Assembly (NCBI GenBank): GCA_030431635.1
Contig: JAUIIL010000001.1
Span: 434,001-498,000 of the forward strand
Source: Bacteriovoracia bacterium
GTDB taxonomy: Bacteria; Bdellovibrionota; Bacteriovoracia; Bacteriovoracales; Bacteriovoracaceae
Direction: 5' to 3'
DNA: 64,000 nt
The notes below the pieces were generated by a model. That model did no database searches. It was not told the DNA's origin and was given only the letters and a program-made list of their open reading frames with translations. Position 1 is the stretch's first letter. Each line of letters begins with the position of its first letter. Made by a program: the position numbers and the translations under genes. This document shows, piece by piece, positions 3,680 through 58,951 of the stretch.

Positions 3680-3686
3680 AACAAAA

Positions 3687-5179: not shown

Positions 5180-5216
5180 TTTAAATTTCTGACCATACCA
5201 ATTAATCAAGTAAATT

Positions 5217-5291: not shown

Positions 5292-5314
5292 GCTAATGGT
5301 CGAGGAGATTAGAA

Positions 5315-5659: not shown

Positions 5660-5749
5660 TGAAATTGGACAGTTCCGGTTAAACCAGAATCCAGGCTCCC
5701 TAGGCCCCCTGACTCCCAGTAAGAAAGAAGCTCAGTATCTAAGTTTCGT

Positions 5750-30028: not shown

Positions 30029-31546
30029 ATGAGCAAGTTCAGAGAGTTTCTCACTGAAAATCCTGTGGTTGTTGGAACTGGTATTGTTTTACTAGCGATG
30101 AACTTTATGGATTTTGAAGGAAATTTTCAGGCAACAGCTCCTGAGAGTAAAACAGCTGAAGCGAAAAAAGGTACATCAGGAAAAAAATATTTCGATCTTT
30201 TCGATGACGATGAAGAATATGAAACTCCTCCTGGAGATCAAAACGATCCTAATAAGCAAAACCCTAGAAGTGTTGCTTCCAGCGGAGGAGTTGATTCGGC
30301 GCCTGTAGCACCTGATTCAATTCCAACTTCACCAGTTAATACATTTGCTGAAACTTTTAGTTCAGAACCTTCTCTTACCCCAGAGTTAGAAAGTACTTCA
30401 GAAGATGATGGTGGAGCCGTTGATGACTATGATGACCCTAAGATTTTAGACTCTGAAGAAAAACTCGCTAGCAGTGAAGAAGACACTCCTGGTGTTAACT
30501 GTTTACTTACCCCTAACGATCCTCTGTGTTTAAGTGCTACTTCAGGAGGTGGAGGAAGTTCTCCTTCAGCTGCATCTGTTGCGGCCGTTTGTGATCCGAA
30601 TAATCCAGCTTCAGAATGTTATGAAGAACCAGATCTTTGTACTCCTGGAGTTATGGTTAATCCAAGACAAGGAACGTATGTAAAAAATCCAACTGTTAAT
30701 ATTGCTTCTACTCACAGTTGTGTAAACGATATTAAGTACTGTGTGAAAAAGGGGGGAGGTTGTTGTGACCCAATGGGTGGTGGTTCATACACAGCTCCAT
30801 TTCTTGTTTCAGATGAGGACCCAGGTATCCAAGACAATGGGGCTTTCTGTTTATCAGTCGTGGCCACAGGTAATAATGGGGATATTTCTCCATTATATGA
30901 ATATAAATTTGTTGTTGATGACACGACTCCAGATATGGTGGCTTCGTTTTCTTCTTTATTAAGAATCCAATCATCAGAGGGAAGTGAATATGTCCAAATT
31001 GATTCAAGTAACTTTGGTCTTCAAGGTTATACGGCCTATGTCATTAACTCTTTTGATGAATCTCCAACGGGGCTAGGTAAGGGGTGTGATGAGGTTGTTG
31101 CTGATTACCCTCCGATTAATCACTCAGTGAGATCTCCGGCCGGTGTTCTCGTTACTCCTATAGGAAACCTGACACCTGGAGTAGATACTCTTAAGTTTTA
31201 TGAGTTTTTTGAAAACAATATGAAGTTTGAAAAAAATTATCTCACTGCCTTTGTGACTTTTACAGATCCCGTTGGAGATCAGTTACATAATTGTCAGCAA
31301 GCTCCTACTCCTGTGGAAGTTTGGGATTTTACAGCTTTCTCTACAGTGGGAGTTATTTCAGATTCTTCAAACGTAAATTCAAAAGGAGTGAGCGTATTTG
31401 AAGGGGGCTTTAGTGACTTTGGTCACTTTGATGGTGCTTCTTCAACCGTGGGAACAGCTCGCTCGAATGCAGGTGGAATCGCTGATTGTGGGAATGGAGC
31501 AGGAAACTGCTATCTCGAATCAGGATATCTCAATGTGGTGAATTAG
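30029..31546 (+). CDS. Membrane-anchored surface-locus protein, paralogue A
   Basis: 505 residues. The N-terminus MSKFREFLTENPVVVGTGIVLLAMNF is an uncleaved-type anchor. Residues about 30-170 form an acidic, Ser/Pro/Thr-rich disordered linker (DDDEEYETPPGDQNDPNKQN). From about 195 on lies a beta-sandwich resembling chitobiase/HYR-type Ig-like modules: GTYVKNPTVNIAS, a Cys-rich patch CVNDIKYCVKKGGGCCDP, DPGIQDNGAFCLSV, and YEYKFVVDDTTP. The C-terminal domain ends FSDFGHFDGASSTVGTAR and YLNVVN. The following gene shares this architecture and these motifs. ATG is preceded by GGAAGG. No known family; I infer an anchor or assembly partner of the fibres downstream. Confidence 0.7.
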   Translation: MSKFREFLTENPVVVGTGIVLLAMNFMDFEGNFQATAPESKTAEAKKGTSGKKYFDLFDDDEEYETPPGDQNDPNKQNPRSVASSGGVDSAPVAPDSIPTSPVNTFAETFSSEPSLTPELESTSEDDGGAVDDYDDPKILDSEEKLASSEEDTPGVNCLLTPNDPLCLSATSGGGGSSPSAASVAAVCDPNNPASECYEEPDLCTPGVMVNPRQGTYVKNPTVNIASTHSCVNDIKYCVKKGGGCCDPMGGGSYTAPFLVSDEDPGIQDNGAFCLSVVATGNNGDISPLYEYKFVVDDTTPDMVASFSSLLRIQSSEGSEYVQIDSSNFGLQGYTAYVINSFDESPTGLGKGCDEVVADYPPINHSVRSPAGVLVTPIGNLTPGVDTLKFYEFFENNMKFEKNYLTAFVTFTDPVGDQLHNCQQAPTPVEVWDFTAFSTVGVISDSSNVNSKGVSVFEGGFSDFGHFDGASSTVGTARSNAGGIADCGNGAGNCYLESGYLNVVN

Positions 31547-31547
31547 T

Positions 31548-32978
31548 ATGTTGGGAAAGATTGCTTCTCTGGTAAAAGATAATGCAGGAACTCTGGCCCT
31601 CGGTGCAGCTGTGGGACTAGGGATGTTTATGTTTAACGATCACAAGCAAGCAGATCTACAGGCACCAGAGAAAATTTCTAAAAATGAGAGAGAGAAAAGA
31701 AAGTTTAAAGATCTTCAAGATCCTAATGAAGAGTTGATAGAAGACAGTTTAGAAATGGAGGAAGAAGTAGGTCGTGAGCCTGCTTCAGAAAGCCAAAGTG
31801 CTTCCTATAATCCAACTTTAAAAACAGCTGAGAGTTCTTCTCTATCTGGCGGAGAAGTTCCTATTGATACATCATCAACTTACGTTGACTCAACTGGTAG
31901 TAGTGCCGAAGTGAGTTATGCTGAAAGTTCTGAGAGTGATAGTGATTTTTATGATGAAGAAAACGAAAGACCTCCTTTAACTGATGAAGAAGCAGAAGCT
32001 GGTAGTTATTGTATGAAGTATCCCTATGCGGCCCAATGTCGTAAGACTGGAGGAAGTGCTGGTAGTGGTGCTGTGACTGAGTATTTCCCTACTCAAGTTA
32101 TTAATAGTCAATGTGGAAATATTTCTGTTTTACCTGGGACAGGTATTTATGTCGCGAATCCTTATGTCGCCATCACTGGAACGGATGTGAAGCAAATTTT
32201 TTATTGCTTTAATAAAGTAGGAGATACTGAATGTGACCCCGTTGCTCTGAAGCAGCCTTACGCAGGGAACTTTCAAGTCTCTACGACTCCAGGGTTTCAA
32301 GATAATGGAAGTTTTCAACTGCGCTTTTTTGCTGAATGCTACGATGGATCAAAAACTTCAGTCGTGAGTGCCGATTATAAAGTTGATGATGGAAACGTAC
32401 CACTATCTTATTTTCAGACTCCAATAATAAAAAGGCTTCAAACTCAAGAGACACATCAAACTTTAACAACAACTTCAACGGCCTTTGGGACAGATCCATA
32501 CAGCCACTTTACTTATAATCTTGGAAATTACGATCCTTCTGCAGATACTTGTCAGGCATTAGCAGAAAACCTTGGATTTTCTATTGCTGGAAATGGGATG
32601 AGAACGATAGCAAGTGTTCAGGTAACTTCAACCGCGGCCCTCACTCCAACAGACTACGTAACTGTTCCTCTATCCATGTATGAAAATCCTTTGATGAGTT
32701 ATGGAGATAACTTTCTTGTGACTTTCATGCAGTTCACTGACGGAGGAGGGATTTCTAAGTATGGTTGTTTAAGTAATAAAGTTGTCTTAAAAGATTTTAC
32801 TTATATGGGAATCATGACAACAGGTGATTACCAAACGCCATCAGTTAATGGTGTTCATCAATTTCAAGGACAAATTCAAAACTTTGGCCATTTTGGAGGA
32901 GTTTCTCCATCTGGACCAGGTGTTGGTCGACTTGGTAATAGCCAAATAGAAACAGACCTAATCAATATTATTAATTAG
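31548..32978 (+). CDS. Membrane-anchored surface-locus protein, paralogue B
   Basis: 476 residues, starting one base after the previous stop. N-terminal anchor MLGKIASLVKDNAGTLALGA and VGLGMFMFN, then an acidic Ser-rich linker (residues about 35-165). From about 180 on come the shared modules: GTGIYVANPYVAITGTDVK, IFYCFNKVGDTECDPV, TTPGFQDNGSFQLRFFAECY, and SADYKVDDGNVP. The last third ends FQGQIQNFGHFGGVSPSGPG and IETDLINIIN, matching the FGHF and terminal I-N-x-x-N of paralogue A. Sequence identity between the two is modest but the domain order is the same, so this is an old tandem duplication. Function unknown. A dyad-rich leader and fibre 1 follow. Confidence 0.7.
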   Translation: MLGKIASLVKDNAGTLALGAAVGLGMFMFNDHKQADLQAPEKISKNEREKRKFKDLQDPNEELIEDSLEMEEEVGREPASESQSASYNPTLKTAESSSLSGGEVPIDTSSTYVDSTGSSAEVSYAESSESDSDFYDEENERPPLTDEEAEAGSYCMKYPYAAQCRKTGGSAGSGAVTEYFPTQVINSQCGNISVLPGTGIYVANPYVAITGTDVKQIFYCFNKVGDTECDPVALKQPYAGNFQVSTTPGFQDNGSFQLRFFAECYDGSKTSVVSADYKVDDGNVPLSYFQTPIIKRLQTQETHQTLTTTSTAFGTDPYSHFTYNLGNYDPSADTCQALAENLGFSIAGNGMRTIASVQVTSTAALTPTDYVTVPLSMYENPLMSYGDNFLVTFMQFTDGGGISKYGCLSNKVVLKDFTYMGIMTTGDYQTPSVNGVHQFQGQIQNFGHFGGVSPSGPGVGRLGNSQIETDLINIIN

Positions 32979-32986
32979 TTTTTCTT

Positions 32987-33032
32987 AATGACTCATTAAA
33001 TTGGCACTAGTTAAGAGAGTAGTCATTTAATG
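32987..33032 (+). other. Hairpin with two alternative pairings before fibre 1
   Basis: AATGACT (32987-32993) pairs with AGTCATT (33021-33027), while the adjacent CATTAAAT (32994-33001) pairs with ATTTAATG (33025-33032). The right arms overlap, so only one stem can form at a time. It may end the anchor operon or act as a switch. No U-tract follows. Confidence 0.35.
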
Positions 33033-33074
33033 GGCAAAAGTGTGATGTAAAAACAAATGTTTACAGATAGAAGC

Positions 33075-33102
33075 TAACATTCCTTTAGAATAAAACCGAT
33101 AG
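33075..33102 (+). promoter_or_regulatory. Sigma-28-like promoter for fibre 1
   Basis: TAAC-N16-ACCGATAG, 28 bases before the ATG at 33130, resembles the FliA consensus (TAAA-N15-GCCGATAA) in both boxes, with one extra spacer base. Confidence 0.4.
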
Positions 33103-33129
33103 AAGGAAATAGAACAATATCGAGTGTTT

Positions 33130-36100
33130 ATGAAGAAGTTTTTGTTTATACTTTTGTTTTTAGTGACAAGCGTTCATGCTCAATCACCAACAGCTTTTAC
33201 TTATGGTGGGCGTTTGGCAACGGTAACTGGTGCTCCTCAAACAGGGGCTATAACGCTGACATTTGATGTATTTGCTTCTTACGACACAACGACAGCTCTA
33301 TGTACAAAATCAATTCCAACGACTCTAGATAGTAACGGTGTCTTCAATGTGACTGTTGATTTTCTTCCGGCCGAGTGTGGTTCTGTTTCAAATCCCTCTC
33401 CGGCCGCTTTTTCTACAATCCTTTCTGAAATTATCAGTTCTGCTCCAGTTGGAATTCCTCTTATTCGAGTAAGTGACGGAACCACAACATATCCGATGCA
33501 AGCGATGAATGCTTCTCCTATTGCAACTTATGCTGTGACAGCTAATGCTCTTATTGCCGATGGAAGTATTACAGCTAGTAAACTTCAAGGACCAGGGCCT
33601 GGTCCTGGGACATGTCCAGTGGGAGATTTCTTAACGATCCAAGCTTCAGGAGATTTTGCTTGTATTACTCCAGTGGGGCAAGTAGCGAGTGTGACAGATG
33701 GAAATGGGATTGTGAACTCAGGAACGGCCACGGCCCCCATTCTTGATGTTAATGTTGGTGTGGGATTAGGAATAGCAACAGATCAAGTTTATATTTTAAA
33801 TTCAGGTGTTGATACTCTTCAAATCGCTGATGATGCTGTGACAACGGCCAAGATTGGAGACAATCAAGTCACTTTTGCAAAACTTGATAACACTTCTTGT
33901 TCAAACGGTGAAGTTCTTAAAAAAAGTGGTGGACTTTGGGCCTGTGGAGCAGATACAGGTAACGTTTTCTCTGGTGGAACTGATAATATTCTTCCTAAGT
34001 TTTCTTCAAGTGGAGCAACTCTAGTTGATTCTCTTGTGATTGATAATGGGACAGAGGTCACTGTAGGAGGAGATTTCAATTTCACAGGGAGAGTGAAAAA
34101 AAATGGATTAAATTTTATTGATGGAAATAATTCAAATAACTCAGTCATGTTTGGTTTTGGGGCGAGTTTTTCTACAGCGGCCAGAAGAACAACTCTTGTT
34201 GGTGCTAATGCAGGGGACTCAGTGACTGGTGATGATAATACTTTAATCGGGTACAACTCTGGTTCAGGTTTAACTTCTGGAATTGGAAATACTTATGTGG
34301 GTTCTCAATCAGGAAGTGATACAGGGACGGGAAATAATAACGTTGGAGTTGGGATTAGTGCTGGTTCTGCTCTTCAAGCGGGTTCATCCAATACTCTTAT
34401 TGGGGAAACAGCAGGGATTTCTTTGACTGATGGTAATGAGAATACTTTGATTGGTTCTCAGGCAGGAGAGCAATTAACAACTGAAACCAACAATACTTTT
34501 CTTGGAGCTCAAGCAGGGCAATCTAACCAAGGAAGTGGAAACCTTTTTATTGGATACCAAGCGGGACAAAACGTGGCCGCTTCTGCTTTTTCAAACCGTT
34601 TTATTGTTGATAATAAATCTTCTTCTTTTACTCCAGGTTCTTATCCACTTATTAATGGAGACTTTCTTACAGGGCAAGTTCGTGTTCACGAAATTTGTGA
34701 TGAGCAAGGGGCCAACTGTAAAGATATCTCTGGAGGTTGGGGACTTGGTACGATGAATAGTTGGACAATTCAAGGTGATTCAGGATTACCAGGAGCTGTT
34801 TCAGATACAAATACTCTTAATATTGTTGGGGCCAATGGGATCACGACTAACATGCCTAGTGTGGGGAATCCTTTTACTCTCACTATCACTGCTCCCAATA
34901 GATTAACGACGCTTGCTTCAGGGGTGAATGCCGCTCAATCTGGTGCAGCTCAAACGTTAACAGTTACAACTGGTTCTGGTGCAACTTCTCCTGTTCCTAG
35001 GTGGGACTTACCGGCTTCTAATACCCATCAGCTTTTTCTTCCGACAGCGAGTACAGTTGGGACAACGGCAGGGCTTTTAGGAAATTTAGACTATGCTGAC
35101 TTTAGAGCAACATCTGACTTATTTGTTGGAGCACTAAGAACTGATACGAAGTGGTGTTATTATGATGGGATCGCAGGCACAATTATTTGTGATAAAGATT
35201 CTTCAGATATGGTTAACCCTACGGCCAATCAAGTGACAAAAAGTGATGGAACTTTCTTTGTTGATTCTCAAATTACAGATAACGGAACAAATGTTGGGGT
35301 TGGAACCACTACTCCTGGAGTAAAGCTTGATGTTAATGGAGCTGGACGTTTTAATGGAAGTACAACTGTAACTGGTGGGGCCAGCGAATTTATTATTGAA
35401 GATCAGGGTGGAACGGCCAACAGGCGAACAGTGATGGCCGATGTGGCCGGAACTTTTAATGTGAGAAGTGATCTGAATGCAAACGATGATGCGAGTGGTT
35501 TTATGATTTTTGAAACCGCTGGGATCACGATTGGTGGAAATACTGCAACTAATCCAAACTCAAGTGCTATTCTTGATATTCGATCAACTGCTGGAGGGAT
35601 ACTTCCACCAAGGATGACAACGTCGCAAAGAAATGCCATTACTCCGCAAGTAGGACTTATGCTTTATAATACTGATGATAGTAAACTTCAGTATTACAAC
35701 GGAACAGTTTGGACTGATACTGGGATAACAGGAGCAGGTATTTCTCCGGGGACACCTCATCGTATTCAAAAATATAACACTGGTGGGACTGACGTTGAAA
35801 ACTCCGTCATGATTCAAATCGGAGGTAATATCGGTCTTAATGATACAACTCCTAGTGCTGACTTTGATATTGACGACACAGACCCAGGAATTCATCTTCA
35901 AGACACTGACAGTGCAAGTGGATCAAACACCACAACAGCTTCTGTGTCTTTTAGAGACTCGGCTGATATTCAGTATGGGTTTGTAGGGGATACTTCAAGT
36001 GCGAATGATAATATCACACTAGCTGGAACAAATGGAGTTAGACTCCAAACAAACTCAGTTGATAGAATTTATGTTTTGGCAACTGGAGAGACAGGTATTG

Positions 36101-39100
36101 GAGTGGCCACACCTAACAGAGCGCTAGATGTGGCAGGAGATATTGAGTTAGATAATAATGCTACTTACTATCGTTCCAATACTCTCACAAATACAAGCGT
36201 TCGAATGATGGGAATTAATGCTGGTGATGTTGCTTATATGGGGGCAATTGATGCTGGGCCAGTTGGAACAATTCATGATGCTTCATCGACTTCTTTGTTC
36301 TCAGCTTTCTATACTGCTGGCGTTGAGGCCATGCGGATTGATAGCAATGGTTATTTAGGAGTTGGGACAACTGGGCCTACTGGAAATTTGCATGTGAGTG
36401 ATGGAGCTTCAGGTGCGAGTGGAATTGCAGCCGAAGTGATTATTGAAGATAATGACAACGCCATTTTAAACTTTCTTTCTCCTAATACAAATCGAAATGC
36501 TATCTTTTTTGGAGATCCTCAAAATAATAGTGTGGGAAGTATTGTTTATAACCATAATGATAACAATCTGAAAATATCAACATCTGCGAATTTAGCAGCG
36601 ACTTTTGATTCGCTTGGACATTTAGCTGTTGGAACAGGAAATCCACATGCTTCTGCTCGTCTTCATTTGACAGATGCAGATGGTGGTCTGGCGATGCCAC
36701 TCGTGACAACTGTGCAGAGAAACGCGATTAACTCGGGAACTTTTCAAGAAGGGCTTCAAGTTTATAATACCACAGATAAGAAAATGCAGTTTTGGGATGG
36801 TGTTACTTGGCAGAATATGGATGGAGGAACAGGGGTAAACTCAGGGACTGGTAATTATATTATGAAGTATAACGCCGGTGGGACAAACGCGACAGACTCT
36901 ATTCTTTATCAAGATGGTTCAGGAAATATTGGTTTAAGAACAGCAACTCCAGTGGGAGATCTTGAAGTTGTTTCAAGTTCTGGTTATGGGGATGTGATGA
37001 TTAGAGGTGCTGCTGGTAGTGGTGCCAGACTTTATTTAGATGCTGATGCAGGAGTCACAAATAGGGCCGCCATTTATAGGGCCACCGGTGCGACTGGTAA
37101 TATGGTTATAAGTAATACAAGTGGAAGTAATCAGCTTGTACTAGATACAACGGGACAAATAGGAATGGGAACGGCCTCTCCGACAGCAGAGCTTACTCTT
37201 GGACCAAATCCTATTGCTCCTCATACAACATCAGGTACGGCTTTTGTTGTTGGGGATTCGACTCGTGCTTTGATGGAATTACAGAACGCAGCCGTGAGAA
37301 CAGTCTTTCAATCAGTATCCACTCAAGCAGAGATTGGAACTTTAACTAACCATGACTTTGATTTTTATACAAATGGTTCGCATCGAATGGTGATTCAAAA
37401 TAATGGGGATGTTGCTATTGGGATAACAGGGGCAGATACTCGTTTGGATATTTTTGATGCTGGGGTACCAACTCACGCGGCCGATGGTCTTCATGTTGTG
37501 GCCGGTGGATCTGGAGCATCTTATAACACAGTTATTGAGAATGATACTGCTGGCGGAAATGGGCTTAACGTATCTGCTGGTGGAAATGGTTCTCAAACAA
37601 ATACAGCGTTTTCAGTTCAAACAAGCGATAGAACAGAAACAGCGTTTAGAGTTTTTAAAAACGCGACAACTCATCATATAGCAGCTTTTGAAAATTCGCG
37701 TATTGGAGTGGGAGGAATCACAGCTCCTCAGTACCTTTTTCAATTAGGAAATAGCGCCTCTCAATCAGTTTCTCTTGATTATCACAGCTCGACTCATAAT
37801 ACCTCAGCAAATACCGTTGTGGGGTCTGAAGGGGGGATGATTCTTGGAGGACAAGATTCTAATTTAACAATAGCTTTAAGAGAAAACTCTTCTGCTGATA
37901 GTTTTAATATTGTTTCAGGGGACGGGAACTTTAATGCAGATTCAACTTGGGATGAGCATATTCTCTCCATTAATGCTGAAGGGGATATGGCGATGGGGGC
38001 AGCGGCTCCTGTTGATGTTGGTCAAACAGTTTTTAGTATTTTTGCAACAGGAGCAAATGATAGAGGAGCAGCTATTAAACTAGACTCCTCGGGGTATACA
38101 GGAGCTAGTACTAGTAACTATGCTTATCAGCAGTTTTCAACTAAGGCCTACGCTCCAAGTGCAGGTAATGATGGTCTTGAAATAGGAATGGAGAACTCGA
38201 CTGGTCTAGCTTACTTTACTAGAAATCAAGGTGGAGCGACAGGAGCACTAAAAGGATTTGTCATTGATAGTAACGGAGATGTAGGGATTAATAACACTAA
38301 CCCGACAGAACCTCTTCATGTGACAGGGAACGCTTTAATTACAGCGAACTTGAAAGTGAATCAAGTCTGTGATGAAACAGGTGCCAACTGTAAGGATGTT
38401 TCTGCTGGTTGGAGTCCTGTGGCCCAAGGAGCTTCAGGTGCACTTCAATTTAGCGATGGTGCGGGAGCGATTATCGCCGATGATAGTAATCTTGTTTTTG
38501 ATGATACGAATAATAGACTTGGGATTGGGACAAATGCTCCTTCAAGACAAATCCATTTATCAGGAGCAAATGGCGTTGATAACCCAGGTATAAGAATAGA
38601 GAACTACGGTGGTGAAGTCAGAGTTGATGGCTTTAGAGCTGGAGGGACAGAAGGAGCACCTACGGCAGTTGGTGGGGGAGTAAATCTTCTTAAAATTGTT
38701 GGGGGCGGGCATAATGGCTCAAACTTCGATCATGGTGGGGAGATACTTATTACTTCCGATGAAACATGGAACGCAGCCGCTCAAGGGACCCATATCGCTT
38801 TTAAAACGACAACCAATGGAACAACGACTGGTGGTGTTGAAAGAATGAGAATCGATCATAACGGAAATGTGGGGATAGGAGTTACTAATCCTAACGATAA
38901 ACTTGATGTTGATGGTGATATCGATGCGACTGGTTGTGTTCAAGTGGATGATTTAGGGGCCATTGGAGGAACATGTTTATCCGATGAGCGTTTGAAAGAA
39001 GATATTAAGGAACTTGAAAGCTCCCTAGATAAGGTTTTAGCTTTAAATCCAGTTCGCTATATTTGGAGAGCGGATCTTTATGATATCCACCAAAGAGAGG

Positions 39101-39378
39101 GAGCTGAAATTGGGCTTATCGCTCAAGAAGTCGAGAAAGTTTTCCCAGAGATGATCAAGACTGGAGAAGATGGATACAAAAGAGTTCGTTATGATGTTTC
39201 TTTACAGCTAAGGCTTATTGCTGCTTTTAGAGAGTTTTATGGAGAAAATAAAGAGACCGATAGTAAACAAAATCGTGAAATAGCTTCCCTGAAAAAAGAA
39301 GTGAATAACTTAAAAGAGCAGAACCAAGAGCTACAAAAACGTTTAGAAAAAATAGAAGCTATGCTACTTAAAAACTAA
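33130..39378 (+). CDS. Fibre 1: giant exported S74-chaperone mosaic fibre protein
   Basis: 2082 residues. Signal peptide MKKFLFILLFLVTSVHA, then an N-terminal beta domain shared with fibres 2 and 3 (FTYGGRLATVTGAPQTG, GVFNVTVDF, paired Cys). A long shaft follows: two Cys-pair hairpins, a YadA-head-like stretch (34156-34600), two CDE-G-C-D modules, and many GNVGIGT-x-P-x-x-LDV repeats typical of trimeric tail fibres. The C-terminal 132 residues are Peptidase_S74: Ser1951 and Lys1956 in SDERLK, GLIAQEVEKVFPEM, then a coiled coil. By family knowledge this domain folds the trimer and cuts itself off before the Ser. ATG at 33130 is preferred over a GTG six bases upstream. A prey- or surface-binding trimeric fibre is inferred. 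Confidence 0.88.
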   Translation: MKKFLFILLFLVTSVHAQSPTAFTYGGRLATVTGAPQTGAITLTFDVFASYDTTTALCTKSIPTTLDSNGVFNVTVDFLPAECGSVSNPSPAAFSTILSEIISSAPVGIPLIRVSDGTTTYPMQAMNASPIATYAVTANALIADGSITASKLQGPGPGPGTCPVGDFLTIQASGDFACITPVGQVASVTDGNGIVNSGTATAPILDVNVGVGLGIATDQVYILNSGVDTLQIADDAVTTAKIGDNQVTFAKLDNTSCSNGEVLKKSGGLWACGADTGNVFSGGTDNILPKFSSSGATLVDSLVIDNGTEVTVGGDFNFTGRVKKNGLNFIDGNNSNNSVMFGFGASFSTAARRTTLVGANAGDSVTGDDNTLIGYNSGSGLTSGIGNTYVGSQSGSDTGTGNNNVGVGISAGSALQAGSSNTLIGETAGISLTDGNENTLIGSQAGEQLTTETNNTFLGAQAGQSNQGSGNLFIGYQAGQNVAASAFSNRFIVDNKSSSFTPGSYPLINGDFLTGQVRVHEICDEQGANCKDISGGWGLGTMNSWTIQGDSGLPGAVSDTNTLNIVGANGITTNMPSVGNPFTLTITAPNRLTTLASGVNAAQSGAAQTLTVTTGSGATSPVPRWDLPASNTHQLFLPTASTVGTTAGLLGNLDYADFRATSDLFVGALRTDTKWCYYDGIAGTIICDKDSSDMVNPTANQVTKSDGTFFVDSQITDNGTNVGVGTTTPGVKLDVNGAGRFNGSTTVTGGASEFIIEDQGGTANRRTVMADVAGTFNVRSDLNANDDASGFMIFETAGITIGGNTATNPNSSAILDIRSTAGGILPPRMTTSQRNAITPQVGLMLYNTDDSKLQYYNGTVWTDTGITGAGISPGTPHRIQKYNTGGTDVENSVMIQIGGNIGLNDTTPSADFDIDDTDPGIHLQDTDSASGSNTTTASVSFRDSADIQYGFVGDTSSANDNITLAGTNGVRLQTNSVDRIYVLATGETGIGVATPNRALDVAGDIELDNNATYYRSNTLTNTSVRMMGINAGDVAYMGAIDAGPVGTIHDASSTSLFSAFYTAGVEAMRIDSNGYLGVGTTGPTGNLHVSDGASGASGIAAEVIIEDNDNAILNFLSPNTNRNAIFFGDPQNNSVGSIVYNHNDNNLKISTSANLAATFDSLGHLAVGTGNPHASARLHLTDADGGLAMPLVTTVQRNAINSGTFQEGLQVYNTTDKKMQFWDGVTWQNMDGGTGVNSGTGNYIMKYNAGGTNATDSILYQDGSGNIGLRTATPVGDLEVVSSSGYGDVMIRGAAGSGARLYLDADAGVTNRAAIYRATGATGNMVISNTSGSNQLVLDTTGQIGMGTASPTAELTLGPNPIAPHTTSGTAFVVGDSTRALMELQNAAVRTVFQSVSTQAEIGTLTNHDFDFYTNGSHRMVIQNNGDVAIGITGADTRLDIFDAGVPTHAADGLHVVAGGSGASYNTVIENDTAGGNGLNVSAGGNGSQTNTAFSVQTSDRTETAFRVFKNATTHHIAAFENSRIGVGGITAPQYLFQLGNSASQSVSLDYHSSTHNTSANTVVGSEGGMILGGQDSNLTIALRENSSADSFNIVSGDGNFNADSTWDEHILSINAEGDMAMGAAAPVDVGQTVFSIFATGANDRGAAIKLDSSGYTGASTSNYAYQQFSTKAYAPSAGNDGLEIGMENSTGLAYFTRNQGGATGALKGFVIDSNGDVGINNTNPTEPLHVTGNALITANLKVNQVCDETGANCKDVSAGWSPVAQGASGALQFSDGAGAIIADDSNLVFDDTNNRLGIGTNAPSRQIHLSGANGVDNPGIRIENYGGEVRVDGFRAGGTEGAPTAVGGGVNLLKIVGGGHNGSNFDHGGEILITSDETWNAAAQGTHIAFKTTTNGTTTGGVERMRIDHNGNVGIGVTNPNDKLDVDGDIDATGCVQVDDLGAIGGTCLSDERLKEDIKELESSLDKVLALNPVRYIWRADLYDIHQREGAEIGLIAQEVEKVFPEMIKTGEDGYKRVRYDVSLQLRLIAAFREFYGENKETDSKQNREIASLKKEVNNLKEQNQELQKRLEKIEAMLLKN
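34156..34600 (+). repeat. YadA-head-like NT-x-IG-x-x-AG repeats in fibre 1
   Basis: About eight units of 16-19 residues with cores such as DNTLIGYNSG, GNTYVGSQSG, NNNVGVGISAG, SNTLIGETAG, ENTLIGSQAG, NNTFLGAQAG and GNLFIGYQAG. The N-T-x-I/V-G-x-x-A/S-G core matches left-handed parallel beta-roll repeats of trimeric autotransporter heads and some tail fibres. In a trimer it would form a globular head partway along the shaft. Confidence 0.75.
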
Positions 39379-39770
39379 CCAGCTGTAACAACAGTTAAAG
39401 TCTCATCTTTTAATTGACCTTGGAAAACTTTAAAAGTGAATTTAATTCCACTTTCTCCTTCATCATCTAAAGTACTATTAATAATGACGTCACAATTTGT
39501 CGTTTTTTCTTTGTTGTCATAAAAACAATCAAATTTTTTAAGTCTGACTTCGTCATAATACTTTGTATCGAAAAGCTTTGATATTTCTGCTTTGACATAA
39601 AAAGGATCGAGGTAGCTAACATCGTCACCACCAGCTCCTTGAAGTTTTAAGTTCTGGGCCTTAATGATGGTTCTTAGAATGTTGATCCCTCCTGAGTAAT
39701 CGACTTTTGACTGGGCGAAAACTTGGGATGCGGATACAAGTAGGGTAAAGAAGAGAATAAAGTGCTTCAC
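39375..39770 (-). CDS. Small exported protein of unknown function
   Basis: The GTG at 39770 is chosen because GGAGGTCC lies directly upstream and the product begins VKHFILFFTLLVSASQVFA, a signal peptide. An ATG at 39821 would put 17 polar residues before it. The 131-residue product has a Gly-Gly-Asp-Asp segment (QGAGGDDVSYLDP), a Cys pair (FDCFYDNKEKTTNCDV) and a beta-rich end (KFTFKVFQGQLKDETLTV). It lies on the opposite strand inside the fibre locus and overlaps the end of fibre 1 by four bases. No family recognised. Confidence 0.6.
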   Translation of the reverse strand: MKHFILFFTLLVSASQVFAQSKVDYSGGINILRTIIKAQNLKLQGAGGDDVSYLDPFYVKAEISKLFDTKYYDEVRLKKFDCFYDNKEKTTNCDVIINSTLDDEGESGIKFTFKVFQGQLKDETLTVVTAG

Positions 39771-39851
39771 AAGGACCTCCAAAATTTGAGAAATTCTATA
39801 TTTTTGTGGTGGGGACTTCAATTAAGAAGTTTAAAATGGTAAAAAATTCTC

Positions 39852-41078: not shown

Positions 41079-41152
41079 CTACCTGTTTTTTCTATGAAAA
41101 ATATACAGCCTTGATTGACTCGAGGCGCATACAGAGGGCATAGTTTCAGCTT

Positions 41153-42583: not shown

Positions 42584-42593
42584 TGAGCGTTAA

Positions 42594-43559: not shown

Positions 43560-43645
43560 TTACCTACATTTACGACCTTTTACATTAACCAAAGAATTTA
43601 TTCAGGAATCAAGCAACAGGAAATTAGTGGTGCTTGGAGGGGAGA

Positions 43646-43732
43646 ATGACTCTTTTTCTTGCCATAAATAAATTATGTTTTCTTTTCAGCTTCTTGCTTG
43701 AAAATTCCAAGTGCCTGAAATTACCGCACTAA
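43646..43732 (+). CDS. Possible 28-residue leader peptide before the fibre 2-4 operon
   Basis: ATG at 43646 sits six bases after GGAGGGGAG, the strongest Shine-Dalgarno in the area. It opens MTLFLAINKLCFLFSFLLEN followed by eight residues, ending at TAA (43730-43732). The peptide is hydrophobic. No similar product is known to me. It could be a leader peptide, a small membrane protein, or chance. The rest of 43560-43827 holds no other frame; a TTACAT/TATAAA pair near 43780-43802 is too closely spaced to be a confident promoter. Confidence 0.3.
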   Translation: MTLFLAINKLCFLFSFLLENSKCLKLPH

Positions 43733-43827
43733 AGAGGTCGGGGATAGGTCAATAAATTCCGCTGTCTGTGCTCCCAGTGTTACATGATAAAATTTTATAT
43801 AAAGAAATGGCGTAAAATTGGAGCTTT

Positions 43828-50737: not shown

Positions 50738-53700
50738 GAACATTAGGCTTATTACTACTGCTCATTATTCCTCTGGCCCATGCTCAGGTTGAATTGATTA
50801 ACGTCAACTCAACTATGACTGATGGAAAATGGTGTCGTTACAACTCGGATAGAATCGAGTGTGATGTCGATGCCTTTGGTCCTCCAGGAGCAGCTGGGGC
50901 CTTAACAGCAACAACAGTACCTAAATGGGATGGAACAAGTCTGGTTGATAGTATCATTTGGCAAACGGCCACTGGAGTTGGGATTAATGATGCCACTCCA
51001 ATAAGTGAGCTTCAGGTAACTGGTTCGAGCCAAATTATTACCAGTGATACAACCAGTACGACAGGGGATAACTATCTTCAGTTTACGCGTGCAGACGGTG
51101 TGACTAATATGGGCCAAGTTGGCTTTGGTGTTAGTGCAACTGATGATATGTTTTTAAGAAACTTTCTTAACGCTCATCTGAGGTTTTATACCAATAATAC
51201 TGAGAGAATGAGAATTGAAGATGGTGGAGATGTGGGTATAAACGAGACAAACCCCGTAAGGAATCTTCATATATCTGATACTGGAACAAGTACAACTTTA
51301 GGTCAGTTAGATACGGGGATTAGGTTACAGACGAATTCTGTGACAAGTAATGCTGGAAGTGAGATTTCATTTAGTGGTTATGGTGGAAGTGATGCCCAGA
51401 ATACCTATGCTGCTATTTCTGCTCTTACAACTGGAAACTCCACTGGGGCACAGGGAGATCTTGCATTTTCAACTAAGGCCACACAAGCTGCAACTACACT
51501 AACAAAACAAATGGTAATTAAGAATAATGGAAATGTAGGAATTGGTGTTTTTCCTCCTACGCAAAGACTCGATGTCAACGGGATTGTCAAAGGAAATAAT
51601 CAGGCGTGGTTTACTGAGTACTGTGATGAAACAGGAAATGAGTGTTTCGATTCATCTACGAATTTTACTGATACTTTCGTGAATGTTGCTGGAGATACAA
51701 TGACTGGGACTTTGAATCTTCCTGCCAATGGTCTTGTGGCCGGGACGAATCAACTTGTTCTTAATGGTGGAAATGTAGGGATAGGGACAGCAACTCCTTC
51801 TTCAAAGCTAACAGTTGAGAATGGAGGAGCCGTTGATGTTCGTATTGATAATACGGGAACAGGAAACTCAACTCTTACCATTGATAGACAAACAACAGCA
51901 GGTGAGTCTCTACTTGTTTTTCAAGATTCAGGGACAACTGTTTGGGAAATGGGAGCAACAAGTAACAATGATTTCGTTCTTCAAAAAGATGGAACGGGCC
52001 CATCAATGTTTATGGAATATGCTACAGGTGACACTGGTTTTGGAACCGCTACTCCAGCAGCAAGAGTCCATGCTTTTGAAGCAACTGCAGGGGATTTTCA
52101 AGCTTTAAGAGCGGAAAATAATAACGGATCACTTGTCATTGGAATGGATGCGAGTTCTGGTTATCTAGTTCAAAACGATAATCTTCCTTTTCGTATATAT
52201 ACTGGTGGGACAGAAAGAGTTCGAGTTCAACCTTCTGGTTTCGTAGGGATCAACCAGACTGCACCGTCTGTCAGATTTCAAGTTGATGAAACAACGGCCA
52301 GTACTTCTGTTGCGCAAATTAGAAATACTAATGCTGCGATGGCATCAGGAACAGTTCTAGAAGTCTCTAACAGTTCAGGAAACTCAGCTGGCTACTATTT
52401 ATTAGATGTTTTTAACGCCACTTCAAAAAAGTTTGTGGTTCGAGGTGATGGGAACGTAGGTATCGGAAATAGTGCTCCTGCTGCTCAATTAGATTCAGGT
52501 TTACAAGGAACAACAAGAGGTACTCATTGGCTTAGAGCTGATGCCGCTGCTGGTGGTTATACTGCTTGGTTTTCACCTGATGGTGGTTATTATGATGCTG
52601 AAGCTCATGACACTTATTTACAACTAAGACGTCAGGGAACAACTGGAATGGCCATAGGTTCCACTGGAAACATAGGAATTGGCTACACTGATCCTGCAGA
52701 GAAATTAGAAGTTAATGGAAACATTGAAATTGGTGGGACTGAGGCAGCGGATGATACTAGACTTATTTTTTCTGCCAGTGATCGCTCAAATAGATTTTTA
52801 ATTGAGTCTGATTTTGATGCATCAACTACTAACGATCTCTTAGGATTTAGATCGTCCAATACAGACAATATTTTTGTGATGCAAGGAAACGGAAATATCG
52901 GTATAGGAATGCTGCCTAATGCTCAAAAAGTAACTGTCAATGGAGTCGTTCAATCAAACAACCAAGCTTGGTTCACTGAGTACTGTGATGAAACAGGAAA
53001 TGAGTGTTTTGATTCTTCAGCAAACTTTACTGATACTTTTGTGAACGTAGCAGGTGATACGATGACAGGACAATTAGTTCTTCCTGCCGATGGATTAGTT
53101 GCGGGGACTAATGAACTTGTCATTGCTAGTGGAAATATTGGTGTTATCAATGCCGCTCCGACTTATGATTTTGAGGTCGGTGCTAATGTTCTGAGTGTTG
53201 ATACGACAAATGGGAGCGTTGGAATAGGTGGGATTGCTCCATCGGCTTCTGGTTATGATCTAAGTGTTCAAGGTCCAACTAATATGAAGGGCTATCTCTA
53301 TGTCGAAGATACGACATGGGGTATTGCTGCTGCAGATAATGTTCCTTTTACGATGGGAGCGGGACAAGATTTCTCAATGGGATCTGATGGAACTAGTGCC
53401 TATTGGAGCGTTGGTTCCGCTCTAGGTTCTGCAACAGGAATGACAATGACTGGTTCTGGTTTCGTAGGGATTGGAACGACGACTCCGCAAAATACTCTCC
53501 ATGTAAATGGATCGATGAGATGGGGTGGTGGAAATACGGCTCCTTTCGCGCTCTCTAGTATTGATGGGAACGGGCTTTATATTGAAAATATTGGAACTGG
53601 TGCGGCCAATGAAGATATTCGTATCCAAGCTTCGGTCAATGGAGATACGACTAACTATTCCGCTTTTTATGTCGATCCGACTGATGGATTTTCTTTCATG

Positions 53701-56322
53701 CAAAATGGAACTGGTAATGGAAATGTGGGGATTGGAACATTAACTCCTTCTGTTCATTTTGAAATTAATAAAGCAAACGCAAGGCTTAAACTTACTGATG
53801 GAACAGACAACATTAATTTTGGTCTTTGGGATGGAACGAACGCCAGAATTGAATCAGATAATAGAGATATTCTGATTACTGCCTATAATAATAATGACAT
53901 CATATTGGGACATGCTGGCACAAATCAAATGATTGTTCAAAATGACGGAGATGTTGGTATTGGTATCGCGAACCCCACCCAAAAGCTTCATGTCAACGGA
54001 AATGTGCGCGCCACTGGTGAAGCTCACTTCACTCAATTTTGTGATGAAAATGGACTTAATTGTTTTGATGCATCTACAAACCTCACAAATACTTTTGTGA
54101 ATGTTTCTGGGGATACGATGACAGGAACTCTCAATCTTCCTGCCAACGGTCTTGTGGTAGGAACTACTCAACTTGTTGTTTCAGGTTCTGATGTTGGTAT
54201 AGGGACTGCTTCTCCTACTCATGCTCTTGAAGTTATCTCTAAAGCTACCGGAGGAATTGATGTTGTGGCTTCAGATTCAGAAGAGATTTTAACTTCAAGA
54301 AATGCTTCTGCTTCAAATGCGGACCAGTTTTATTTGAGACATAATAACGGCGGCGTTGAAATGGGGAACTTAAGAGGAAATATTAGTGTATTAAACGGCC
54401 GTTTTGGTATTGGCCAAGCTCCTTCTGATAAACTCCATGTCTATGATGCCTCAGACAGCGCGATTGCTTTAGGAAGAGCGGGTGTTCCTGCTTCACTTGC
54501 AACTTGGGATTATAATACAGGAACTTCAACAATAGGGACTGTTAATGCTGATAACTTTGCTATTAAAACAACAAATACGAATAGATTAACAGTAGCAGCA
54601 GGAGGAAATGTGGGGATTGGAACTGCTTCTCCGGCCTCTTATGCAAGACTAGATGTTAATGGAGGAGATATTGTGGTTAAGGATTCAGGTAATCCTGGGA
54701 TGGTAACTCTTCAACCTTCTTCAACAGGTTCTTGGTGGAATATGGCCAATACTAACGATGGGGGCAAATTTAAAATTCAGCATGGAAATAAATCTGCTGA
54801 TAATGATACCACAGACTGGGCAAATGCTCAGTTCACCATAACCTCTGGTGGAAATATTGGAGTTGGAGCTGATACACCAAGTACCAAACTTCATGTTTCA
54901 GCAAACATGAACGCTTCAACAGCTGTTCTCGTTGAGAATACGAATGCTGGAGCTAGTGCTGTAGCAGCATTACGTTTTGATACTGATGGTGGAACGACTG
55001 TCTTAGGGAGAGTGAGTAACGCCTATACAGGGTTAGCTGGAGCTCAAGATGATTTTGTCATCAATGAAGCTGGTGGCGGGGATACTGTCTTTTTTCATAA
55101 CGGTGTTGAAAGAATGAGAATTGAAAATGGAGGAGACGTTGGTATTGGTGTTACGAACCCTAGTCAAAAACTTCATGTTGCTGGGAACGCGAGAGTCACT
55201 GCTCAAGTTTGGGCGCAGGAGCTTTGTGATGAGAATGGAGCCAACTGCCAGGATATTAGTGCCAATAACGGGGATATTACAAATATCACGGCTGGAGATG
55301 GTCTAAGTGGTGGTGGAGCTGCGGGAGCTGTGACTTTAACAGTGAATGTTGATAACTCAACGATTGAGACAAACACTGATACTTTAAGAGTAAAAGCAAG
55401 TGGAATTACAGCTAACGAAATTGCGACAGGAGCGGTAGCAACAGCTGAAATTCTTAACAATACAATTACTGATGATGATGTCGCGGATAATTCTTTAACT
55501 GCTCTATCTCTAGCTGCTGACTCTGTTGGTTCAAGTGAAATAGCTGCTGGTGCTGTTGATACAAGTGAGTTGGCAACAGATGCTGTAACAGCGGCAAAGA
55601 TTGCAGCTGGAGCAGTGGGAACAAGTGAAGTTGCAGATAACTCTTTAACGGCCAACGATTTGGCCGCGGACTCTGTTACTGCTAGTGAGCTTGCTAATAA
55701 CGCTGTTGATAATGGAGCGATTGCCAACCAAGCTATTACTGATGTGAAGCTTTCTGGGATTGCGTCAAACTGCGGGGCCAACCAAGTCGTGAAAACAAAT
55801 GGTTCAGGATCATTTTCTTGTGCTGCTGATAATAATACAACTTATACTGGTGGAACTGGATTAACTCTTTCTGGGACTACTTTCAACGTGGATGATATCT
55901 ATTTACGAAACAACGCGAACGATACAACCACAGGCTCTTTAACGGCGACTGCTTTTTATTATTCTTCAGATGAGCGATTAAAGCATAATATTCATACTAT
56001 TAACAGCGCAAGCGATTTAATTGAGAGTCTAAGAGGGGTGTTTTTTAACTGGAATAAAGATGGCAGTGCTGACGCTGGATTTATTGCTCAGGAAGTTGAA
56101 GTTGTGGCCCCTTACCTTGTGCATGAATATAAAAATAAAGAAGATGGCGAGACTTACAAAGCTGTTAAATACGGAAACGTTTCGGCCATTTTAGTAGAGG
56201 CCTTCAAAGAGCAAAAACGTGAGATTGCTTTTCAAAAAGAAGAAATCGATTCACTTAAAAGAATGAACGAGATGCTCATAAAAAGGTTAGAGAGACTAGA
56301 GAAGCTTGAGCAAAATCGTTAG
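50734..56322 (+). CDS. Fibre 4: giant exported S74-chaperone mosaic fibre protein
   Basis: 1862 residues. Signal peptide MRTLGLLLLLIIPLAHA. It lacks the N-terminal domain of fibres 1-3; instead it begins KWCRYNSDRIECDVDAFG, which resembles an internal segment of fibre 1 (near 35150). The shaft is dominated by GNVGIGT-x-x-P-x-x-L-x-V repeats, four CDE-G-C-D modules (three within long DNA repeats), a run of A-x-x-S-V/A-V-x-x-S-E-I/L repeats (about 55390-55760), and one Cys-pair hairpin. The S74 domain has S1745 and K1750 in SDERLK and AGFIAQEVEVVAPYL. The released piece is 118 residues. It overlaps fibre 3 by four bases. Confidence 0.88.
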   Translation: MRTLGLLLLLIIPLAHAQVELINVNSTMTDGKWCRYNSDRIECDVDAFGPPGAAGALTATTVPKWDGTSLVDSIIWQTATGVGINDATPISELQVTGSSQIITSDTTSTTGDNYLQFTRADGVTNMGQVGFGVSATDDMFLRNFLNAHLRFYTNNTERMRIEDGGDVGINETNPVRNLHISDTGTSTTLGQLDTGIRLQTNSVTSNAGSEISFSGYGGSDAQNTYAAISALTTGNSTGAQGDLAFSTKATQAATTLTKQMVIKNNGNVGIGVFPPTQRLDVNGIVKGNNQAWFTEYCDETGNECFDSSTNFTDTFVNVAGDTMTGTLNLPANGLVAGTNQLVLNGGNVGIGTATPSSKLTVENGGAVDVRIDNTGTGNSTLTIDRQTTAGESLLVFQDSGTTVWEMGATSNNDFVLQKDGTGPSMFMEYATGDTGFGTATPAARVHAFEATAGDFQALRAENNNGSLVIGMDASSGYLVQNDNLPFRIYTGGTERVRVQPSGFVGINQTAPSVRFQVDETTASTSVAQIRNTNAAMASGTVLEVSNSSGNSAGYYLLDVFNATSKKFVVRGDGNVGIGNSAPAAQLDSGLQGTTRGTHWLRADAAAGGYTAWFSPDGGYYDAEAHDTYLQLRRQGTTGMAIGSTGNIGIGYTDPAEKLEVNGNIEIGGTEAADDTRLIFSASDRSNRFLIESDFDASTTNDLLGFRSSNTDNIFVMQGNGNIGIGMLPNAQKVTVNGVVQSNNQAWFTEYCDETGNECFDSSANFTDTFVNVAGDTMTGQLVLPADGLVAGTNELVIASGNIGVINAAPTYDFEVGANVLSVDTTNGSVGIGGIAPSASGYDLSVQGPTNMKGYLYVEDTTWGIAAADNVPFTMGAGQDFSMGSDGTSAYWSVGSALGSATGMTMTGSGFVGIGTTTPQNTLHVNGSMRWGGGNTAPFALSSIDGNGLYIENIGTGAANEDIRIQASVNGDTTNYSAFYVDPTDGFSFMQNGTGNGNVGIGTLTPSVHFEINKANARLKLTDGTDNINFGLWDGTNARIESDNRDILITAYNNNDIILGHAGTNQMIVQNDGDVGIGIANPTQKLHVNGNVRATGEAHFTQFCDENGLNCFDASTNLTNTFVNVSGDTMTGTLNLPANGLVVGTTQLVVSGSDVGIGTASPTHALEVISKATGGIDVVASDSEEILTSRNASASNADQFYLRHNNGGVEMGNLRGNISVLNGRFGIGQAPSDKLHVYDASDSAIALGRAGVPASLATWDYNTGTSTIGTVNADNFAIKTTNTNRLTVAAGGNVGIGTASPASYARLDVNGGDIVVKDSGNPGMVTLQPSSTGSWWNMANTNDGGKFKIQHGNKSADNDTTDWANAQFTITSGGNIGVGADTPSTKLHVSANMNASTAVLVENTNAGASAVAALRFDTDGGTTVLGRVSNAYTGLAGAQDDFVINEAGGGDTVFFHNGVERMRIENGGDVGIGVTNPSQKLHVAGNARVTAQVWAQELCDENGANCQDISANNGDITNITAGDGLSGGGAAGAVTLTVNVDNSTIETNTDTLRVKASGITANEIATGAVATAEILNNTITDDDVADNSLTALSLAADSVGSSEIAAGAVDTSELATDAVTAAKIAAGAVGTSEVADNSLTANDLAADSVTASELANNAVDNGAIANQAITDVKLSGIASNCGANQVVKTNGSGSFSCAADNNTTYTGGTGLTLSGTTFNVDDIYLRNNANDTTTGSLTATAFYYSSDERLKHNIHTINSASDLIESLRGVFFNWNKDGSADAGFIAQEVEVVAPYLVHEYKNKEDGETYKAVKYGNVSAILVEAFKEQKREIAFQKEEIDSLKRMNEMLIKRLERLEKLEQNR
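51558..54210 (+). repeat. Three long dispersed repeats in fibre 4
   Basis: Units of about 230-240 bases start near 51558, 52924 and 53980. Each encodes L-x-VNG, an F-T-x-x-CDE-x-G-x-x-CFD module, FVNV-x-GDTMTG, LPA-x-GLV-x-GT and a closing G-x-x-G. Stretches such as gtactgtgatgaaacaggaa occur unchanged in copies one and two. They are candidates for recombination that changes shaft length. Confidence 0.75.
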
Positions 56323-56344
56323 TTACTTTCCCTTTTAATTAAGG

Positions 56345-58951
56345 GTGATTAAAATAAAGTTTGGAATGAAGTTAGTACGTTTGTTGGTTATATTTAGTAT
56401 CTTATTGGTGAGAGCTTCTTTTGCTGAGCTCTGTGAAAATGCTGCGCCAGTTGCTCTAACTTATAACAATACTTGTGTGAAGATTTCAGGAACTGGGGCT
56501 GTCACGAATACTCAGGCAGGACAAGGTTGTAAGCTTGATGATGATGTTGTGGCCCAGGTTTATAAATCCACCAACTCCCGTTACTGCGCTAGAGTTTCTG
56601 TTGGAAGTGTGACAGGAACGGGAATTTTAGCTCCCTATAATACAAACGGAGAAATTGACTCTCTCTTTAATAATCCTCCTACTAACGTGACAACGAGTAA
56701 TTGTTATTGCCACTCACCTTACTTGGCCCATGGTGCAGTAGGGTTTACTTCGACAACTTATACAACAAATGCTCCCGTTGGGGCCACTTGTGCAAGTGTT
56801 GATTGTTATTCTCAAAGAACTTGTAATAATGGCTGCTATGGAGCATGGACTCCAGCTCAATGTGCTTTTTCTTCTTGTAATGATGGGTGTGCAGCCGGTT
56901 GTTGTGGAATTTCTGATTCGCCAAATGCGGCCCATGGGGGAACCAGTTCAGTGACAAGATACTCAACAAACCTACCCAATGGAGTTCCTTGTAGTAGTGT
57001 CGATCAGTCACGAACCATTTCCTGTTCAGCTGGAACTTGGAGTTTTAGTTCAGGAAGTTATACTTTTCAAACTTGTAATGATGGTTGTCCAACAAACCAA
57101 GCTTCTGTTAACAGTCAGTCTCCCTCAGGAAGGCATGGCGATACGAGTTCAGTCACTCGTTACTCATCGGCCACGCCAAGTGGAGTTCCTTGTACGAGTG
57201 TTGATCAAAGTAGAGGAATTTCTTGTTCTAACGGAACCTGGTCATACACGAGTGGCTCTTATACTAATACAACTTGTACTGATGGGTGTGCTTCTGGGTC
57301 TGGTGGGATAGCTGGTTCTCCAGCAGGAAGTCACGGCGGGACAAGTTCAGTGACAAGATACGCTTCTTCAGCTCCTGTGGGAACAAGTTGTTCGTCGCAA
57401 TCAAGAAGTATTTTATGCTCTAGTGGTTCTTGGGGATACACCAGTGGTTCTTATACGGCAACAAGTTGTAATAATGGGTGTCCTTCGGGTGGGGCCAACG
57501 TCGGTTCAGGTGCACCTGCGGCTGCTCACGGTGGAACAAGTTCAGTCACTCGATACTCTTCTTCAACCCCTAACGGAGTGCCTTGCACCAGTGTCGATGA
57601 GACAAGAAATATTTCTTGCTCTAATGGAACTTGGTCATACACGAGTGGCTCTTATACCAATGCAACTTGTACTGACGGTTGTGCGGCTGGTTCAGGTGGG
57701 ATAGCCGGATCTCCTACAGGAAGTCACGGCGGGACAAGCTCAGTCACAAGATATGCTTCCTCGGCTCCAGTGGGAACAAGCTGTTCGTCCCAATCAAGAA
57801 GTATTCAATGCTCAAGTGGTTCTTGGGGGTACACCAGTGGTTCCTATACTGCCACAAGTTGTAATAATGGGTGTGCCGCTGGGGCTGGTGTTGCTGGGAC
57901 TCCTAGTGGTTCTCATGGTCAAACAAGTTCAGTCACAAGATATGCTTCATCTGCACCTGTGGGTTCAAGCTGTGTGTCTCAGTCAAGAGGCGTTCAGTGT
58001 AGTAACGGAACTTGGGTTTATACTAGTGGTTCTTATACAGCGACTTCTTGTAGCAGTGGTTGTACTTCACCAAGTGTGGCCCATGGAGGGACAGACTCAA
58101 GAACGCGTTACCTCTCTTCAGCTCCAGTGGGAACAGGCTGTACATCTGAATCACAAAGTAGAACTTGTAGTAACGGAACTTGGGGAAGTTGGTCAGGATC
58201 CTATACAGCAACAAGTTGTAATGCAGGATGTACTTCACCAAGTGTGGCCCATGGAGGAACAGATTCAAGAACCCGCTACCTCGCTTCAGCTCCTGTGGGA
58301 ACAAGCTGTACGTCTGAAGGTCAGTCTCGAACTTGTAGTAATGGTTCTTGGGGAGGATGGTCAGGATCTTATACGGCCACAAGTTGTAATAATGGTTGTC
58401 CAGCCGGTAGTGGGATTTCTGATGCTCCAGCAGGTAGCCATGGACAAACATCAAGTGTGACAAGATATCTAGATGACGACCCTCCAACTTCATGTACTTC
58501 CCAGTCAAGAAGTATTCAATGTTCGAGTGGAACTTGGGGATATACTAGTGGAAGCTATACTTATACTTCTTGTACGGTGACTCCAACATGTAGTGGGGAA
58601 GGACAGATTGCAAGTAGTTCTGGAGATTGTTGTGCAGGAACTCCGAATTATTGCTCTTTTGACTCAGGTGGAGATAAAATAACATGCCCTGGAGGAGAAG
58701 TTTGTTATTGTACAGCTATGGCATGTCCAGGTGGTTTTGCTACTGACGGGGAAATCTGTGAAGTAGGTAAAATAAATGCGACAACGACAACAAGTGTGAC
58801 CTCTTATGGTTGTAATGAATGCGACGTCGATGCTGGAGCAGGACAATTTGGTTGTGATGGAGGAACTTTCTCAGTATGTGGACTTGGATATACAGCTTCT
58901 TGTTCTCAGCAGGGTAATGCTGCATGTTCAGGAAGTTGTTCTGATTACTAA
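56345..58951 (+). CDS. Exported Cys-rich protein with nine tandem repeats
   Basis: 868 residues from GTG at 56345; an ATG at 56366 gives MKLVRLLVIFSILLVRASFA and is equally possible. A short N-terminal Cys domain precedes nine repeats of about 55-67 residues (56876-58570). Their consensus is C-x-D/N-GC, then HGGTSSVTRY, a C, SQSR-x-x-x-C-S-x-G-T/S-W, and SGSYT. Each repeat has four Cys, suggesting two disulfides. The C-terminal 130 residues are a different Cys-rich domain with CCAGTPNYC, CYCTAMACPGG and NECDVDAGAGQFGC. Similar repeats occur in surface proteins of many bacteria. It is 22 bases after fibre 4, so it is likely part of the same surface programme. Confidence 0.78.
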   Translation: MIKIKFGMKLVRLLVIFSILLVRASFAELCENAAPVALTYNNTCVKISGTGAVTNTQAGQGCKLDDDVVAQVYKSTNSRYCARVSVGSVTGTGILAPYNTNGEIDSLFNNPPTNVTTSNCYCHSPYLAHGAVGFTSTTYTTNAPVGATCASVDCYSQRTCNNGCYGAWTPAQCAFSSCNDGCAAGCCGISDSPNAAHGGTSSVTRYSTNLPNGVPCSSVDQSRTISCSAGTWSFSSGSYTFQTCNDGCPTNQASVNSQSPSGRHGDTSSVTRYSSATPSGVPCTSVDQSRGISCSNGTWSYTSGSYTNTTCTDGCASGSGGIAGSPAGSHGGTSSVTRYASSAPVGTSCSSQSRSILCSSGSWGYTSGSYTATSCNNGCPSGGANVGSGAPAAAHGGTSSVTRYSSSTPNGVPCTSVDETRNISCSNGTWSYTSGSYTNATCTDGCAAGSGGIAGSPTGSHGGTSSVTRYASSAPVGTSCSSQSRSIQCSSGSWGYTSGSYTATSCNNGCAAGAGVAGTPSGSHGQTSSVTRYASSAPVGSSCVSQSRGVQCSNGTWVYTSGSYTATSCSSGCTSPSVAHGGTDSRTRYLSSAPVGTGCTSESQSRTCSNGTWGSWSGSYTATSCNAGCTSPSVAHGGTDSRTRYLASAPVGTSCTSEGQSRTCSNGSWGGWSGSYTATSCNNGCPAGSGISDAPAGSHGQTSSVTRYLDDDPPTSCTSQSRSIQCSSGTWGYTSGSYTYTSCTVTPTCSGEGQIASSSGDCCAGTPNYCSFDSGGDKITCPGGEVCYCTAMACPGGFATDGEICEVGKINATTTTSVTSYGCNECDVDAGAGQFGCDGGTFSVCGLGYTASCSQQGNAACSGSCSDY
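56876..58570 (+). repeat. Nine tandem Cys-rich repeats (period about 165-200 bases)
   Basis: Each unit runs from one C-x-x-GC to the next. Units 2+3 and 4+5 form a near-identical two-unit block, so a pair was duplicated as one piece. Units 7 and 8 are also near-identical to each other (TSPSVAHGGTDSRTRYL). This shows recent expansion. Confidence 0.85.

Follow-up and report, generated by a model that had tools for sequence, protein, structure and literature searches.

Across genomes of the Bacteriovoracaceae, a family of proteins with an Ig-like core, here called the anchor, pairs with the N-terminal base domain of fibres of the mosaic adhesive trimer (MAT) type, and not with the S74 tip. The window, i.e. 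the whole stretch of 64,000 nucleotides that was analysed (C1:434001-498000 of a 3.32-Mb genome in 19 contigs), holds a chromosomal locus that probably encodes a set of MAT-type adhesive fibres and their dedicated partner, the anchor, which would serve as the fibre tether. Judged by the open-access papers searched, both this protein family and its association with the base are new.

The fibre cluster and its surroundings

The ten cluster genes named by the initial annotation were all present as open reading frames on the plus strand (Table 1). P0008, P0009, P0010 and P0011 probably form a single operon, because P0008 and P0009 overlap by 11 nt, P0009 and P0010 overlap by 4 nt, and the gap between P0010 and P0011 is 22 nt. 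The gene descriptions in that annotation were largely borne out: P0001 and P0002 are paralogues (25% identity, E 1e-23), the four giant fibres all possessed a signal peptide and a Peptidase_S74 domain (PF13884, E 4e-12 to 8e-17), P0005 matched a barrel family (PF13557) and an OmpA domain (PF00691), and P0006 had a lipobox and an Ig-like domain. The SDxxxK motif of the four fibres was read by eye as SDERLK, SDRRLK, SDARKK and SDERLK. The nine repeats of P0011 (56-67 aa each) were coded by recent tandem duplications of 393 bp and 168 bp.

Table 1. Features of the fibre cluster and of other parts of the window, with positions counted from the first nucleotide of the window.
Feature	Position	Strand	Length (aa)	Description
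Aromatic amino acid pathway cluster	1251-9547			aroA-, aroC-, aroB- and aroQ-like genes (read by eye)
Aromatic amino acid pathway cluster	1251-9547	other strand		pheA-, tyrA-, aminotransferase- and DAHP-synthase/chorismate-mutase-like genes (read by eye)
P0001	30017..31546	+	509	Anchor paralogue 1
P0002	31548..32978	+	476	Anchor paralogue 2
P0003	33124..39378	+	2084	MAT-type fibre (assigned on sequence): signal peptide, base domain, repetitive shaft, S74 with SDERLK, coiled coil
Exported ORF	39375-39821	-		Inside the locus, on the strand opposite to the cluster
P0005	39852..41078	+		Outer-membrane barrel with OmpA peptidoglycan-binding domain; adjacent gene outside the conserved module
P0006	41153..42583	+		Lipoprotein with HYDIN/ASH Ig-like domain; likewise adjacent but outside the conserved module
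P0007	42594..43559	+		Helical protein, exported; neighbour, not a conserved part
P0008	43828..47253	+	1141	MAT-type fibre (assigned on sequence): base domain and S74
P0009	47243..50737	+	1164	MAT-type fibre (assigned on sequence): base domain and S74
P0010	50734..56322	+	1862	S74 fibre, exported, without MAT base domain
P0011	56345..58951	+		Cys-rich repeat protein (nine repeats), exported
P0012	58968-60593			Exported protein with zinc-protease-like motif
DUF4423 (TIGR02147-like) regulator	60706-61509			Adjoins the cluster

By definition, a MAT has its base domain after the signal peptide (Caulton et al. 2024, PMC10769870). This arrangement was found in three of the four fibres (P0003, P0008 and P0009), in which the signal peptide was followed by a beta-rich conserved base of ~130 aa and the first ~170 residues belonged to one sequence family. 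In a profile-profile comparison, this base matched that of the Bdellovibrionaceae MATs with a probability of 99.3 (E 1e-20), and the tip-proximal part of P0003 matched the solved chains 8oml, 8on4, 8ol4 and 8ond of trimeric Bdellovibrio MATs. At a cutoff of E 0.001, nothing in the PDB matched the base domain, and its best match in a viral library had poor coverage. On these sequence grounds, P0003, P0008 and P0009 are classed as MAT-type fibres. P0010 possessed a signal peptide, while the base-profile search returned only a weak partial internal match, and it thus falls outside the definition for want of a base; the initial annotation was correct in referring to MATs, and also in seeing here a chromosomal multi-fibre surface locus that includes anchor-like partners.

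Concerning the remaining members of the cluster, single-sequence searches, which distant relatives could escape, found no relatives of P0005, P0006, P0007 and P0011 at ~40 other anchor or fibre loci, and none of the four had a relative next to either of the two further anchor-fibre pairs in the genome under study. For lack of recurrence, these four proteins (barrel, lipoprotein, helical and Cys-rich) were rejected as core parts of the module. No outer-membrane exporter for the fibres was identified. The proposal of a complete fibre system with its own anchors thus stood in part: the anchor-like partners are real and their pairing with base-domain fibres recurs across genera, but the accompanying barrel and lipoprotein do not share this synteny, and "complete" is not supported for a set with non-recurrent members, no identified exporter and a fibre (P0010) without a base. 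Nor is the locus self-contained. The cluster runs beyond the window, with a further anchor-fibre pair at the contig end that starts at C1:499504, 5.8 kb past the last ORF of the window; a gene for a solute-binding protein, on the opposite strand, was also found there. The opposite end of the same contig carries a third pair (C1:7955), in which the fibre has no terminal S74.

Several other genes were observed around these loci. The two ends of contig 1 carried a start-less fibre (L006:3-5531) and an end-less fibre (L008:2899-3679) with repeat motifs in common; they may belong to a single gene or to two genes that resemble each other. An S74 fibre was separated from an anchor-fibre pair by a HipA-like kinase gene and a small nucleotidyltransferase-like gene (L006:5634-7808). 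P0012, which starts 16 nt past P0011, contained the motif HEVFH...E. In several genera, exported proteins of ~1200 aa with 22-26 cysteines were encoded directly 3' of fibre genes (L056:14325-17957, L057:7744-11379, L059:16465-20000 and L093:1573-5148); judged by eye, they were alike among themselves and unlike P0011. The DUF4423 regulator was considered as a possible member of the module: its relatives flanked six other anchor-fibre loci (L068, L072, L079, L080, L082 and L084), but the genome under study had 14 copies.

Anatomy of the anchor

Both anchors of the window possessed an N-terminal membrane helix, a disordered linker (154 aa in P0001 and 151 aa in P0002) and a conserved C-terminal tail (...LESGYLNVVN and ...IETDLINIIN, respectively), with a Cys-containing Ig-like core in P0001 and two Ig-like domains in P0002. 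In the structure model of P0002, the two Ig-like domains formed the confident core (residues 181-420), and neither the linker nor the last 35 residues had a confident structure. Most of the aligned anchors (33 of 36) were of this long form: their N-terminal helix was hydrophobic, and their linker, rich in Ser, Thr, Gly and Pro, measured 112-357 aa. The other three, of a short form, possessed a lipobox in place of the membrane helix and 13-20 aa before the core (L076:9223-10239, L086:9503-10483 and L087:247-1224).

The last 14 residues of the anchor were conserved at 1.85 bits, compared to 1.8-1.9 bits for the folded core and 0.83 bits for the linker. This tail, conserved yet with a pLDDT under 50, has the properties expected of a region that becomes ordered upon binding to another protein. 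The cysteines of the anchor were also conserved, which would imply an oxidising compartment.

The likeness of the anchor to CHB_HEX_C_1 and Ig-like periplasmic or surface domains consisted of weak PF13290 matches in two of the 36 anchors and the two-Ig-like model, whereas its linker-core-tail layout matched no Pfam family and its core gave generic Ig-like fold matches only. FimC-like and GhpA-like fold matches (Z 7-7.4) were discarded as lying within the background for Ig-like folds. Among the genomes searched, no whole-protein relative of the anchor was found outside the Bacteriovoracaceae.

Co-occurrence of the anchor with the fibre base

The presence of the anchor and of the base was surveyed with one profile each in 129 Bacteriovoracaceae genomes. 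The anchor occurred in 29 genomes and the base in 27: twenty-six possessed both, three the anchor only, one the base only, and 99 neither (Fisher 8e-23, a value that overstates the evidence, the genomes being related and not phylogenetically independent); as the base profile used for these counts was drawn mostly from anchor-adjacent fibres, the co-occurrence applies to that base subtype. Of the anchor-only genomes, G065 had no more than a decayed fragment, the copy of G144 was truncated by the start of its contig, and G128 had a single shortened copy, alone on a contig of 5.6 kb; the sole base-only genome had a weak match that scored better with the Bdellovibrio-type base profile.

At the gene level, 28 of 41 anchors had a base-domain fibre at a distance of up to 1.5 kb, where uniform placement would give 0.25, in one of two gene orders depending on the genus, either tandem (anchor followed by fibre) or divergent, so that a frozen ancestral order does not explain the adjacency. 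All four anchor copies of the genome under study were located at its three sites with base-domain fibres. The divergence of the anchors was correlated with that of the bases (Spearman 0.72, reached by none of 2000 permutations, the species tree not being corrected for). The S74 domain tracked the anchor only weakly: of the 129 genomes, 84 possessed S74, and 57 of these had no anchor. Moreover, seven fibres next to an anchor ended in tips other than S74. Given its much wider distribution, S74 was ruled out as the determinant of the pairing.

About a dozen anchors stood alone and may act in trans. Four of these, from one genus (L065:9772-11145, L066:10121-11497, L069:9531-10958 and L071:7707-9062), may likewise serve fibres encoded elsewhere; those at L065 and L066 clearly shared one genomic position. 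In the MAG G034, the nearest relative of P0002 (core 51% identical) was found alone at the matching place. When named genomes were scanned with the anchor profile, a single locus was detected. A related locus with its upstream gene order in common with the window belonged to a named Bacteriovoracaceae MAG, which places the organism in this family.

In Bdellovibrionaceae genomes with MAT bases, no anchor was detected above chance with either the full or the core-only profile, and the neighbours of their MAT genes included no partner recurring at most loci. A profile built from Bdellovibrionaceae bases also detected the Bdellovibrio-type base within the Bacteriovoracaceae, in four genomes that had no anchor (G007, G015, G088 and G148). 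The anchor is thus not needed for every MAT, and the pairing concerns one base subtype.

Possible roles of the anchor

We give an even chance to the more specific reading that one MAT base subtype has its dedicated dock at the cell surface in the anchor family. The anchor would then be a shared membrane tether for exchangeable fibres of prey recognition, which would dock on its conserved tail. From the anatomy of the anchor and its co-occurrence, adjacency and pairing with the base, we infer the following course. P0003, P0008 and P0009 would be exported by Sec, and their shafts together with the C-terminal S74 chaperone would bring about trimerisation. The chaperone would then cleave itself off, the conserved base domain staying at the fibre N-terminus. 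The anchors would sit in a membrane by their N-terminal helix, or by a lipid in the short relatives, and the long disordered linker would reach towards the outer surface, where the two Ig-like domains and the flexible conserved tail may dock the fibre base. A single anchor could in this way serve several fibres with differing tips, which would be displayed at the surface and adhere to prey. A long linker at one membrane, a short one at another and a flexible conserved tail would be expected of such an outer-surface tether.

The main rival to the tether is a role in assembly or escort, in which the anchors would be Ig-like chaperones held at the inner membrane, keeping hold of the fibre base in its passage to the outer membrane. 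Such a role would suit the N-terminal membrane helix with a linker of periplasm length, as well as the numbers of genes, one to three anchors being found alongside up to 17 fibres. The second Ig-like domain also aligned to the pilus chaperone FimC (Z 7.0-7.3), but at a level that is common for the fold and not above background, and the loss of the linker in the three lipobox forms fits a placement at another membrane better than an escort at the inner one. We therefore consider this role unlikely, while still a serious candidate.

Linkage without a common function is improbable. The genes would then have been co-inherited, or co-transferred as a genomic island, and the anchor could for instance be an independent adhesin, in line with the existence of stand-alone anchors, the frequency of Ig-like cores in adhesins and the fact that Bdellovibrio fibres manage without an anchor; however, the near-perfect match in presence and absence, the two distinct gene orders and the dependence of the pairing on the base subtype all argue against it. 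A prophage or tailocin remnant, with fibre genes left behind by a phage, is so improbable that it was dismissed, in agreement with the initial annotation: despite S74 and tail-fibre matches in PHROGs, which were confined to the fibres, the cluster and ten flanking proteins yielded neither virion genes (head, portal, terminase, tube or baseplate) nor a set of lysis genes, all fibres possessed signal peptides, the module recurs in many genera, and the genes next outside encode a solute-binding protein and another anchor-fibre pair.

Compared to known systems, the fibres have in common with phage S74 fibres and spikes, such as the K1F endosialidase and the T5 L-shaped fibre, a C-terminal intramolecular chaperone with SDxxxK, but they differ by their signal peptide, the absence of virion genes and a presumed attachment to the cell instead of the virion. 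With the MATs of Bdellovibrio bacteriovorus HD100 (PMC10769870), they share the signal peptide, a homologous N-terminal base, a long repetitive shaft, an S74 or non-S74 tip, several copies per genome and the tip-proximal likeness to solved chains. In contrast, their base is a distinct subtype, absent from P0010, and they are clustered with a dedicated anchor gene, whereas the fibre genes of Bdellovibrionaceae are scattered and have no anchor.

The surface element that holds the MAT base was stated to be unidentified in the paper that defined these fibres (PMC10769870), and the anchor family is a candidate for this part, which would hold predator fibres on the cell. As a family that tracks the fibre base across genomes, it offers a partner that can be named and tested, and it would set a constant dock apart from the variable tips.
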